A stretch of DNA of 64,000 nucleotides, from positions 1-64,000 of the forward strand of contig JAUSNM010000113.1 of NCBI GenBank assembly GCA_030645535.1. Reading direction: 5' to 3'. The stretch comes from Gallionella sp. (GTDB lineage Bacteria > Pseudomonadota > Gammaproteobacteria > Burkholderiales > Gallionellaceae). The notes beneath the pieces were generated by a model. It did not search any database and had not been told where the DNA came from. It saw only the letters and a program-made list of their open reading frames with translations. Both the position numbers and the translations under genes were made by a program. Position 1 is the stretch's first letter, and each line of letters begins with the position of its first letter. Positions 48,622 to 59,394 of this stretch are shown here, in pieces.

Positions 48622-49482
48622 ATGAAAAAATTATTGATGTTGTTGACGATTGCTTTAACTTGTTTGAGTTTATTTGCCACGACCGCTGAAGCCAAGCGTT
48701 TTGGCGGCGGCAGCAGTTCCGGCAAGCAGCGCACGATGGCGCCGCAACAGGCACAAAAAGCGCCGACAGCAGCGCCTGCCGCAGCACCTGCAGCGCCCGC
48801 TTCGACCGGCAACAAGTGGATGGGCCCTCTGGCAGGCCTGGCAATCGGCGCGGGCTTGGCCACGATGTTCGCTGGCGGCATGGGCGGAATGGGTGGTTTA
48901 GGCGGTGCGATGAGCAGCATTCTGATGGCACTGCTCGCAGCCGGCGCCGTGATGTTCGCGATTTCGATGTTCCGCAAGAAGCAGCAACAACCAGCCATGC
49001 AGTCGATGCAATACGCAGGAGCGGGTGCACCTTACCAGGCACCTGAACCCATGCAGTACACAGGTGGCTCGGCAGCCGTTGCAGCCCCGGTAGCCGGCCA
49101 CATTCCAGCGGATTTCCCGGTGGATAGTTTCCTGCGCAGCGCCAAGACTTCGTTCATCCGCCTGCAAGCCGCGAATGACCGCAAGGACTTGAACGACATC
49201 CGCGAATACACCACGCCGGAAATGTTTGCTGAAATCTCCATGCAGATGCATGAGCGCGACAACACGCCGCAAACCACCAACGTGATCGCGATCAACGGCG
49301 AATTGCTGGAAGTGGCAAATGAAGGCGACTGGGCAATTGCCAGCGTGCGTTTCACCGGCCAGCTGAGTGAAAACAACGGCGTTGCAGAAAACGTGGATGA
49401 AATCTGGCACGTGCAGAAGAATCTGAAAGATGACAAGTCAGTCTGGCTGCTGTCGGGTATTCAGCAAACCAACCTGCACTAA
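48622..49482 (+). CDS. Tim44-like domain protein
   Basis: 286 residues from the ATG at 48622 with GAGGAA upstream. Signal peptide (LLMLLTIALTCLSLFATTAEA), an Ala/Pro/Gln-rich linker, a Gly/Met-rich hydrophobic segment (GLATMFAGGMGGMGGLGGA) with a membrane helix after it, then a Tim44-like C-terminal domain (FLRSAKTSFIRLQAANDRKDL, DEIWHVQKNL). Bacterial members are membrane-associated and often lie near ubiJ/ubiB, as here; function unknown. Confidence 0.88.
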   Translation: MKKLLMLLTIALTCLSLFATTAEAKRFGGGSSSGKQRTMAPQQAQKAPTAAPAAAPAAPASTGNKWMGPLAGLAIGAGLATMFAGGMGGMGGLGGAMSSILMALLAAGAVMFAISMFRKKQQQPAMQSMQYAGAGAPYQAPEPMQYTGGSAAVAAPVAGHIPADFPVDSFLRSAKTSFIRLQAANDRKDLNDIREYTTPEMFAEISMQMHERDNTPQTTNVIAINGELLEVANEGDWAIASVRFTGQLSENNGVAENVDEIWHVQKNLKDDKSVWLLSGIQQTNLH

Positions 49483-56123: not shown

Positions 56124-56617
56124 GCTTAGTCCCGTTTCAAATTTGATGTTTATTGCGCCTGGTCAGTCACGCTTAGATTAAACGTTTGCACCTGTATCCG
56201 ATGGTGACAATACCAGACAAATGCTGTCGGGACTAATGGGATACGCTTATTTTAAGTAGGGAAAATCCTAGCGACAAGCAAGACGGCCTTGGCAGTCCGA
56301 AGCTGTTCTGCAAGATGCTTTGGATGGTGGCTTGGATCTCCAGGCCTAAGAGTTAAGATATTGAGGATAAAACTTTGGAGCGCGCATCACCTGTCCATTC
56401 CCGGACGGGCATGAATGTTCGTTGATTCTGAAAACCGCAGTTCTATCCGCAGATTACGCAGATTCACACAGATTAACAACAAGTTATGAAATAACTGTTC
56501 GCCACCCCAATGGTGAGCCAAGTGTGCATATAAGTATTTGTTTAATCTGCGTTAATCCATTTAATCTGTGGATAACAGCTTTTCCAGGTTGATTAACGCG
56601 TGTTTGTTTTTTCAGAA
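56124..56617. other. Intergenic region between porin and parA
   Basis: About 490 bases without a gene. The half next to the porin should hold its promoter, although no clear -10/-35 was seen. The half next to parA is filled by an inverted-repeat-bounded element (56424-56622). Confidence 0.6.
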
Positions 56618-56622
56618 TCAGG
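56424..56622. repeat. Inverted-repeat-bounded element with internal CAGATTA repeats
   Basis: The ends TGATTCTGAAAA (left) and its complement (right) match, and inside each end there are imperfect copies of ATCCACAGATT / GCAGATT sequences in opposite orientation. The right end includes the parA stop codon. It resembles a non-autonomous mobile repeat. Confidence 0.6.
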
Positions 56623-57382
56623 AAAAAAAGCCGCTGTCCCACAATTCCCGGGTCAGGGCCTGATAGTCCACAGCGCCCGGGCTCTTGGGTGCATATTGAA
56701 ATATATCCTGCCCGTGCATCGGGCTGGTCGCCAGTCCCACCGTCTCGCTGATGCGCGCAGTGCAGACAATTTCGCCAAATCGGGCTTTCAGCTTGTCGTA
56801 TATCTCGAAGGAGAGTTTGCGCCGGGAATCGAAACGCGTCACCAGAATACGCCGCTCTATCTTGCGATTGAGTTTGGTTTCCAGCACATTCAGCGCGCTG
56901 TCCAGCCTGTGCACGCCTTGCAGTGACAGGAAATCGGCGGATACCGGAATCAGCACACGATCCGCCGCAAGCAAGGCATTCAAGGTGAGCACACCCAGCA
57001 TCGGACAGCAGTCGATCATGATCGGCGCACCCGTGAGTGACATATCCTCGTTCAGGCCTCGCTTCAACAAGGTCGCGGCTTGAGGATCACTGCCAAACAG
57101 CGCGTCTATCTTGGCCAATTCCAGCACCGCAGGGACAGCTTGCCAGCCCCGTGTCGTGTCGCGCAGCAAACTGGCCAGCGGAGCCTTATGTTTGAAAAAG
57201 GCCGCCATACTGATATCTGACCGGACATTCCTGATCCCGCTGGCCAGCGTCAGGTGGCCCTGCGGATCCATATCGAGGGCGATGGGATGCTTCTGCGCAA
57301 TACTCAGCGCAGCAGTCACGTTCAGACAGGTGGTGGTTTTGCCGACCCCACCCTTTTGATTAAATACGGCAATGACCGCCAT
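56618..57382 (-). CDS. ParA-family ATPase without an adjacent ParB
   Basis: 254 residues with a deviant Walker A (FNQKGGVGKTTTCLNV) at the N-terminus, Walker B-like MIDCCPMLG, and a C-terminal VTRFDSRRKLSFEIYDKL. It belongs to the ParA/MinD group that moves or positions cargo. No ParB or parS was recognised nearby; it may serve chromosome or protein positioning, or be a remnant of an island near the glmS end. Confidence 0.88.
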   Translation of the reverse strand: MAVIAVFNQKGGVGKTTTCLNVTAALSIAQKHPIALDMDPQGHLTLASGIRNVRSDISMAAFFKHKAPLASLLRDTTRGWQAVPAVLELAKIDALFGSDPQAATLLKRGLNEDMSLTGAPIMIDCCPMLGVLTLNALLAADRVLIPVSADFLSLQGVHRLDSALNVLETKLNRKIERRILVTRFDSRRKLSFEIYDKLKARFGEIVCTARISETVGLATSPMHGQDIFQYAPKSPGAVDYQALTRELWDSGFFS

Positions 57383-57410: not shown

Positions 57411-57449
57411 CTATTCAACGGTCACAGACTTAGCCAGATTCCTGGGTTT
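57411..57449 (-). pseudogene. Second copy of the glmS 3' end (13 codons)
   Basis: On the minus strand it reads [12 protein letters not shown] and a stop, identical in protein to the end of the glmS just upstream, but with ten of twelve sense codons differing at synonymous positions (for example CCC/CCT, AGG/CGT, CTG/CTT), and a TAG instead of TGA. Upstream of it the reading frame is lost. It is the remnant of a different glmS allele. Confidence 0.85.
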
Positions 57450-57498
57450 GTAGCTTCAAGCCCAGACAAGCTTTTTGGCTCGCTGTAAACCTCGTATC

Positions 57499-59325
57499 TC
57501 ATTCGACCGTTACTGATTTGGCAAGGTTACGAGGTTTATCCACGTCGGTCCCCTTCTGCAAGGCAACATAATATGCCAGCAGTTGCAGCGGAATGGTGTG
57601 CAGAATAGGGCTTAAAAAACCTGCGTGTTCGGGCATTTGCATGATATGTACGCCATCATCTTCGCGTATGTGGGTATCCGCATCGGCAAAAACATACAGC
57701 TCGCCGCCACGCGCGCGGACTTCATGCAAGTTGGATTTTAGTTTTTCCAGCAGCACATCGTTGGGTGCGACCGAAATCACCGGCATATCCTTATCCACCA
57801 GCGCCAGCGGCCCATGTTTGAGCTCACCGGCAGGATAGGCTTCGGCGTGAATATAGGAGATCTCCTTGAGCTTGAGCGCGCCTTCCAGTGCAATCGGGTA
57901 ATGCAGGCCGCGTCCCAGGAACAACGCATGCTGCTTATCGGCGAACTGCTCGGCAAGTTTTGCAATCTGTGGTTCCAGATCCAGCACCTTTTGCGTGGCT
58001 GCAGGCAGATGACGCAAGGCGTGCAAATGTTTCTGCTCACACTCAACCGTCAGGCGATTACGCTGCTTGGCGAGCACCAGCGTCAACAGGAACAGCGCAA
58101 CCAGTTGCGTGGTGAAGGCCTTGGTAGAAGCCACGCCGATTTCCGGCCCCGCGCGCGTCAGAAAACGCAGCTTGCAAAGACGGACCAGCGCGCTTTCCGG
58201 GACGTTACAGATGGCAAGCGTGTGGATGTGACCCAGCGCCTTCGCGTGATTCAACGCAGCCTGAGTATCGGCGGTTTCACCCGACTGGGACAGCACCACC
58301 ACCAACGCCTTTGGATTGGGCACACTGGTGCGGTAACGGTACTCACTGGCGATTTCCACCGTACACTGAATTCCGGCAATCTCTTCCAGCCAATATCGCG
58401 CAACCAGCCCTGCATGATAGCTGGTACCGCAGGCCAGAATCAGTATGCTGTTGATATCAGCGAAAGATGCAGCCGCCTCGGCGCCGAAAATTCCCGGCAC
58501 GATGGACTGACTGTTGCAGACAGATTCGAGCGTGTCTGCTATAGCTTGCGGCTGTTCGTGAATTTCCTTCTGCATGTAGTGGCGATATTGGCCCAAGGAC
58601 ACGCTCTCATTGCTGATCTCGCTTACCTGGACCGGGCGTTCAACAATGCTGCCCGCCGCGTCGTAAATCCGATAGCTTAGCCGCTCGATTTCGACGACAT
58701 CGCCTTCTTCAAGATAGATCACTTTATTCGTGACCGGCAACAGCGCTGACACATCCGAGGCGATGAAGTTTTCCCCGATGCCAATTCCCATCAACAAGGG
58801 GCTGCCGCGCCGCGAACAAATAAGCTGATCGGGATTATCCGCCGCAATCACACCGATGGCATAGGCACCTATCAACTCGGCGAGTGCAGCTTTCGTGGCG
58901 TCAAGCAGTGAAACCCCGTTCACATAATGGCTGTGAACCAGATGCGCGATGACTTCCGTATCGGTATCTGAAGTAAATTCATAGCCACAGGCGCTCAGAC
59001 GGGTGCGCAGCGACTCGTAGTTTTCGATGATGCCGTTATGCACTACCGCGATCGAATCACGGCTCAGGTGCGGATGAGCATTGCGCTCGCTTGGCACGCC
59101 GTGCGTCGCCCAGCGGGTATGGGCTATGCCAAGCAAGCCTTGCGTTTCGGCACTCTTGATCGTAAGTTCAGCGACACGGCCGGTACTGCGCACGCGTTCC
59201 AGCTGAGCGTTGCGTACCACCACCAAGCCGGCGGAGTCATAACCTCGATATTCAAGTCGCTGCAATCCCTCAAGCAGGATGGGTACAACATTGCGTTGAG
59301 CTACTGCGCCTACGATTCCACACAT
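57499..59325 (-). CDS. glmS: Glutamine-fructose-6-phosphate aminotransferase GlmS
   Basis: 608 residues. [10 protein letters not shown] provides the N-terminal Cys nucleophile of the glutaminase domain, and two SIS domains in the second half carry the sugar isomerase site. It makes glucosamine-6-phosphate, the entry to cell wall precursors. The C-terminal [11 protein letters not shown] end is intact and is the region recognised by Tn7-like elements in other species. It follows glmU by 44 bases. Confidence 0.98.
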
Positions 59326-59338
59326 AATTCAAACCCAA

Positions 59339-59394
59339 TTGATAATTGATAGTTGATAGTTGAAAATTGTCACTTGTCACTTGTCACTTGCTTT
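59339..59394. repeat. Heptanucleotide repeat across the glmU stop codon
   Basis: Eight consecutive seven-base units all beginning with TTG on the plus strand (TTGATAA, TTGATAG x2, TTGAAAA, TTGTCAC x3, TTGCTTT). The glmU stop (59370-59372) lies in one of the TTGTCAC units. Confidence 0.85.

Follow-up and report, generated by a model that had tools for sequence, protein, structure and literature searches.

The second glmS ending found just downstream of glmS in a 64,000-nt stretch of a Gallionella sp. genome (contig JAUSNM010000113.1; hereafter, the window) is probably the former ending of this gene, displaced by the insertion of a small, gene-free, cassette-like unit. The repeat differs from the present ending at 10 of the 12 sense codons, every change being silent, and the stop codon differs too, leaving 2 of 13 codons identical; a spacer of 49 nt (57450–57498) lies between the glmS stop codon and the repeat. 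A scan of both strands of the window for gene-tail copies (open frames of at least 60 codons; last 8, 10 or 12 residues, up to one mismatch, up to 300 nt downstream) found the glmS case alone, and the second tail is therefore not a chance match. The sequence-only reading had described the repeat as a silently diverged glmS 3′ end, once functional rather than recently duplicated, and had counted insertion among its possible origins; the divergence is borne out, and both the functional past and the insertion are supported, with a short insert separating the tails (Table 1).

The glmS endings of the window and its relatives

Table 1. Features around the 3′ end of glmS in the window
Feature	Position	Strand	Basis
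glmS (608 aa)	57499..59325	(-)	ORF list; SIS and glutamine amidotransferase domains
Tail 1, present functional glmS ending, 12 codons plus stop	57499..57537	(-)	
Inserted unit, 88 nt (own glmS tail, loop, arm, core)	57451..57538	(-)	Sequence; equal 88-nt period in G035
Predicted unit junctions (slash marks the junction)	GA/TAA at 57539/57538; GCTA/CAA at 57451/57450	(-)	Junction motif from 55 tail pairs
Left half of 11-bp inverted repeat, TAAACCTCGTA	57528..57538	(-)	11 outer pairs in DNA fold
Arm, reverse complement of tail 1 start, TACGAGGTTTA	57486..57496	(-)	Sequence; DNA fold
Core, short and degenerate (outer stem AGC with GCT, internal loop, short tip)	57448..57488	(-)	R1 and R2 matches
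Displaced tail, putative former functional glmS ending	57411..57449	(-)	Sequence; general tail-pair pattern
parA, ParA-type ATPase (PF13614)	56618..57382	(-)	

The window unit is a degenerate member of its family, recognized more by its position and parts than by its score, and we read it as old and partly decayed. An unfiltered R1 search of 181 nt recovered the core (10.2 bits, E = 0.0044), and a filtered R1 search of the window gave no match at E = 0.05. With R2, which was built from 12 short cores (the G035 homologue included, the window's own core excluded), the glmS core ranked second over the whole window (11.8 bits, E = 0.13) and had the same ends as with R1. The top R2 match (48699–48747) scored above the glmS core; it has no tail copy and was judged to be a chance match rather than another unit. 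Folded as DNA, a 141-nt stretch of the window forms an 11-pair stem (z = −2.01; 4 of 200 shuffles equally good), and both the stretch of arm, core and tail (z = −0.24; 77 of 200 shuffles equally good) and the core folded alone do no better than shuffles; for comparison, L247 has a z of −1.36 and the canonical units L048 and L102 have a z of −5.6. The window's own tail pair is not among the 55 that define the junction motif, as its core misfits the pattern used. As to which of the two tails is native, codon similarity to relatives gives a mixed picture: the nearest by DNA favour the displaced tail and G047 favours tail 1. The window genome contains two further units (L247 and, at nrdB, L252), both with silently diverged tails.

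Two other repeats were seen by eye in the window. Downstream of parA (56430–56600), inverted AT-rich repeats (CAGATTAA and TTAATCTG) look like a small separate repeat element, and short tandem repeats (TTGATAGTTGATAGTTG and TCACTTGTCACTTG) lie between glmS and glmU (59335–59390).

We surveyed the glmS locus in 76 genomes of the genus, mostly draft assemblies and one per species. A glmS match was present in 62 genomes, at 65 places, 57 of which were read (G037, G068 and six partial genes excluded). Inserts with perfect extra glmS tails occur at 7 of these 57 loci (the window genome, G035, G043, G003, G030, G008 and G019)—with three tails each in G003 and G030—and decayed extra tails at at least two (G072, 9/12 residues; G005, 10/12 residues). 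Comparison with relatives at this locus, as the sequence-only reading had proposed, yielded the insert there too, and the description of parA as an orphan did not hold up: parA lies up to 600 nt downstream of glmS at 17 of the 57 loci and is a common neighbour in the genus. At 5 of these 17 loci, 24–41 nt separate the two genes, representing the empty state. On the other side of glmS, an integron integrase gene lies about 1.4–2.2 kb upstream on the same strand in G003:C8, G030:C7, G040:C5, G010:C99, G009:C79 and G073:C710 and is broken in G039:C58, which suggests that a chromosomal integron often lies beside the glmS region in this genus.

Architecture, fold and targets of the units

Searching with the core as DNA led to many loci at the ends of other genes, each with its own tail repeated; the same core recurs at over a dozen protein genes and also within the anticodon loops of tRNAs. 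A unit consists of a copy of the target's remaining coding tail, an arm that is the reverse complement of the first ~8–19 nucleotides of that tail, and a core with covarying stems. Units are ~75–180 nt long, contain no gene, are located between GA and MAA (M = A or C) and can occur in tandem. An arm match lies up to 131 nt before the core in 65 of 118 cores, and three matches lie 233–356 nt away, all in tandem arrays; the other 50 cores have no arm match within 2 of 14 bases. No cargo-bearing unit was found among the 118 cores, these 50 being uninformative on cargo, and as the measured units have no room for a gene, they would encode no integrase.

Targets identified by family search include proB, argF, acs, metK, dnaJ, nrdA, smpB, hisC, nrdB, ftsW, hypD and transketolase; the target gene in L141 had no family match, and that in L247 had a weak iron–sulfur oxidoreductase-like match below cut-offs. 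The dnaJ locus in L108 carries three tails (KVKDFFAQ plus stop) with silent differences. Most units that were read, among the matches listed, sit directly after stop codons, and by eye we also found an antisense unit at the start of nuoD and units in the anticodon loops of tRNA-Ser, tRNA-Leu and tRNA-Phe genes (L188, L192, L198, L144, L208 and L255). In the tRNA units, the hairpin before the core is unlike the target, which weakens the idea that the arm is a target-selecting guide, and a further tRNA copy adjoins. At G023:C85:36720-37060, G054:C5:475601-475732 and G027:C217:51-221, the units of a tandem are nearly the same in sequence or have equal scores, possibly reflecting recent amplification.

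R1 matches at E = 1e-3 or better are present in at least 60 of the 76 genus genomes, with up to 25 per genome among the matches listed; scoring more candidates and allowing E values up to 0.01 gave 29 matches in G005 and 2 in the window genome. In a class-wide draw, 2 of 370 genomes had an R1 match at E = 1e-5, so that the family looks clade-restricted at the sensitivity of R1. The exact core pattern was found in 61 stretches of named genomes, 33 with titles in Gallionella, Sideroxydans, Ferriphaselus, Ferrigenium, Gallionellaceae or Gallionellales and 11 in Nitrosomonadales; the remainder include Thiobacillus, Methylophilaceae, Rhodocyclaceae, Uliginosibacterium, Sulfurisoma and MAGs titled Gammaproteobacteria. 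Inspection of 21 of the 61 loci showed that a tail copy is not present at every one. The exact pattern was absent from viral contigs, and a blastn search of plasmids and phages with one 60-nt core gave no match.

Comparison of 55 distinct tail pairs (731 codons, duplicate loci removed by sequence key here and in the junction and ftsW counts) gave 290 silent and 56 residue-changing differences, a ratio biased toward silent changes by a search that required protein similarity and excluded decayed pairs, and at least three of the pairs (L155, L181 and L184) probably lie outside the gene's own frame. Given the many silent and few other changes, the displaced tails were probably working gene ends when most of the differences arose. 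The junction is well conserved across the 55 pairs: G at −2 in 46, A at −1 in 52, A (34) or C (18) at +1, A at +2 in 52 and A at +3 in 53. Among 41 informative pairs, the arm is closer to its own upstream tail in 33, closer to the displaced tail in 5 and tied in 3, indicating that the tail moves as one block with its arm and core. At 8 of 11 ftsW loci, the overlap with the murG start codon is retained by the displaced tail; this copy is thus native there, and the first copy arrived with the unit.

These patterns also bear on the earlier suggestion that glmS or its 3′ part was replaced by homologous recombination with another lineage and the old tail left behind. A divergent glmS, 64–66% identical to that of the window, is the one found in G005, G008, G025, G045 and G053, and twice in G044; because it adjoins parA in G005, G008 and G053, the native gene was possibly replaced in that clade, where glmS itself may thus have been exchanged as well, and the displaced tail of G008 belongs to the other sequence class. 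Homologous replacement, however, gives no reason for a covarying core, a matching arm or a GA/MAA junction, and explains neither the insert nor the same pattern at other genes and tRNAs, with the core between tails at many unrelated genes. We consider it an unlikely origin of the window's second tail.

The core comprises an outer stem (TTK-CGGY paired with RCC-A-MAA), a symmetric three-by-three internal loop (often GNA opposite GNA), a three-pair stem and a tip with none, one or two hairpins. In a set of 15 cores, both partners vary in 12 of the 22 pairs, and the values obtained lie beyond those of all 500 shuffles. With 110 distinct cores, aligned by fitting to the model (which favours a covariation result), 19 of 22 pairs were compensated and 327 double-change cells were counted versus 84.5 in shuffled alignments, again with none of 500 shuffles as high; slid versions of this alignment gave 20–27. 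Core base 3 covaries with the M of MAA (UA, 43; GC, 42; unpaired, 18). The 12 short cores alone exceed all 500 shuffles in pairing and in covariation score, but their number of compensated pairs, three, was reached by 149 of 500 shuffles. A1 and A4 were picked by eye. An Rfam scan of seven loci gave no match at a core that reached its gathering score.

The folded strand is probably single-stranded DNA. Of the 178 hairpin loops in the 110 cores, 126 are triloops, 83 of these being GNA and 121 closed by C–G; GNA triloops with C–G closure are characteristic of hairpins in DNA. In the core pairs, changes on one side alone are rare compared with double changes, as expected if G–T pairs are poorly tolerated, and it is these C-GNA-G triloops and the scarcity of G–T pairs that suggest DNA, although some G–U or G–T pairs do occur in the cores, which leaves RNA as the less probable alternative. 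A structured 3′-UTR RNA without mobility, its tail copies made by local duplication, would fit the strong covariation and the position of most listed units behind stop codons. We nevertheless regard this as quite unlikely: units also occur within tRNA genes and, as read by eye, in antisense orientation at the nuoD start, the triloops and few G–U pairs fit DNA better, and silent differences at 290 of 731 codons are unlike local duplication.

Proposed insertion and candidate movers

From these sequence comparisons, we infer that the units move. A site-specific recombinase would place the unit where a gene's tail begins; the unit, probably a circle in which core and tail are joined, would recombine at GA/MAA, so that the gene receives the unit's tail and the host's native tail ends behind the core. 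The gene would survive the insertion because the unit supplies a full coding ending. Arm, core and next tail may act together as a folded site, much as an attC does with its R and L boxes, its spacer and its variable tip. For tRNA units, the core could also stand in the gene copy that it does not repair.

Some tyrosine-integrase islands and integrative mobilizable elements (IMEs) restore a gene's or tRNA's 3′ end on integration, and tRNA anticodon loops are among the sites used. The units are like these integrative elements in that they bring a functional 3′ end for the target and push the native copy to the far side, but differ in being 75–180 nt long, in having no integrase gene and in sharing one core among many targets.

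Movement by IntI, with the units as cassettes of the chromosomal integrons of the genus, would have an enzyme at hand, as IntI scores above cut-off in at least 38 of the 76 genomes and lies near glmS in several. Units also resemble integron cassettes in their apparent block-wise insertion, newest unit first, giving arrays with cassette-like order, and in a foldable site made from one unit's end and the next unit's start, with a variable tip. They differ in having no gene, in an A/MAA rather than G/TTRRRY junction and in arms that follow the target's coding tail. The attC R boxes RYYYAAC and GTTRRRY were not found at unit junctions, which read CCA/MAA and GA/MAA. The attC site is described as a folded single strand with extrahelical bases on one side (PMC3053210); the unit core folds, with covariation, and its internal loop is symmetric.

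The genomic distribution also speaks against IntI. Several unit-rich genomes (G005, G065, G023 and G008) have no IntI above cut-off among the matches listed, and neither does the window genome (G000), although the assemblies of G023, G008 and G000 are 80–87% complete and G023 has a partial IntI match; G005 is a single contig and 99% complete. Mean R1 matches per genome, among the matches listed, are 7.1 with IntI (270 in 38 genomes) and 5.7 without (215 in 38 genomes). In L283 and L280, the repeats that flank intI and were taken by eye for attC sites look unlike the unit core, and in 20 stretches around intI, R1 found units solely at glmS in two, plus one weak match. A strict attC heuristic gave no match on intI-flanking stretches and is uninformative. 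Taken with the junction, these results leave us giving IntI-moved cassettes little credence.

We attach similarly low probability to a REP/RAYT or other HUH-type element, or a retroelement. The units share with REP/BIME (RAYT) sequences and MITEs that they are short, non-coding, hairpin-forming and multicopy, and they lie mostly behind genes; a Y1_Tnp match is present in at least 63 of the 76 genomes. G005, however, has no Y1_Tnp among the matches listed and no match to RVT_1 (reverse transcriptase), yet it has 29 R1 matches; it has no IS110 match either. To our knowledge, no REP/BIME or MITE family restores the coding tail of its target. G005 encodes a single serine recombinase and only two PF00589 tyrosine recombinases, which score as XerC/XerD-like. 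The mover would be a host enzyme or one from outside the families searched, unless the units of G005 are fossils.

That the extra tail is the scar of a Tn7-like element or TnsD/TniQ island, as the sequence-only reading had suggested, is very improbable: the window has no TnsB-type end repeat, none of the nine loci in the genus with such repeats has a perfect extra tail nearby, and tails and core occur likewise at genes other than glmS. The motif applied, at up to two mismatches in the window, came from the glmS loci of relatives and from Tn7 ends. Such repeats follow glmS at 9 of the 57 loci, where no perfect extra tail lies within 500 nt (one locus having just 373 nt to inspect); these include G072, with its decayed tail of 9/12 residues, a point in favour of a scar. 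The other such point is that the 39-bp second tail overlaps the segment of glmS bound by TnsD, an overlap that would arise because the GA/MAA site lies there. Tn7-like elements at attTn7 likewise sit just downstream of glmS; the units differ by their many other targets and by the lack of Tns-type repeats in the window, where a generic insert accompanies the extra tail as it does elsewhere, and we know of no Tn7-like element that carries a glmS tail.

At G021, Tn7-type repeats begin inside a unit, and the remainder of a unit, with a glmS tail, lies ~31 kb away on the same contig; the unit therefore seems older than the Tn7-type island, which also speaks against a scar. Tn7-type elements and units look like separate systems that share an address. 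Five ORFs of the G021 island (L060, downstream of glmS) were scanned by Pfam and comprise an AbiJ-like abortive infection gene, a histidine-kinase-type ATPase, a DNA methylase, a weak response-regulator match and one unmatched ORF, with no Tns protein among them.

Standing and meaning of the units

The units match none of the element families tested: they lack defining features of Tn7 elements, of integron cassettes and, in G005, of repeats moved by RAYT. In the open-access literature covered, we found no account of units of this kind. The mechanism given above is hypothetical. A more far-reaching and tentative proposal, which we think possible but doubtful, is that the units are a novel type of mobile element, cassettes without a gene that would move as folded single-stranded DNA, be harmless through the gene ending they carry and perhaps use the host's XerC/XerD as recombinase. 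XerC/XerD is suggested by G005, which combines 29 matches with just two PF00589 recombinases, both Xer-like, and one serine recombinase.

Tail duplicates at glmS, then, need not be Tn7 scars. If the displacement reading is true, the units would be insertion elements that escape purging by carrying the coding end of their target, pairing target-matched arms with a fixed folded core. They would leave a readable record of former gene endings, and they would silently rewrite the ends of core genes, apparently across species.
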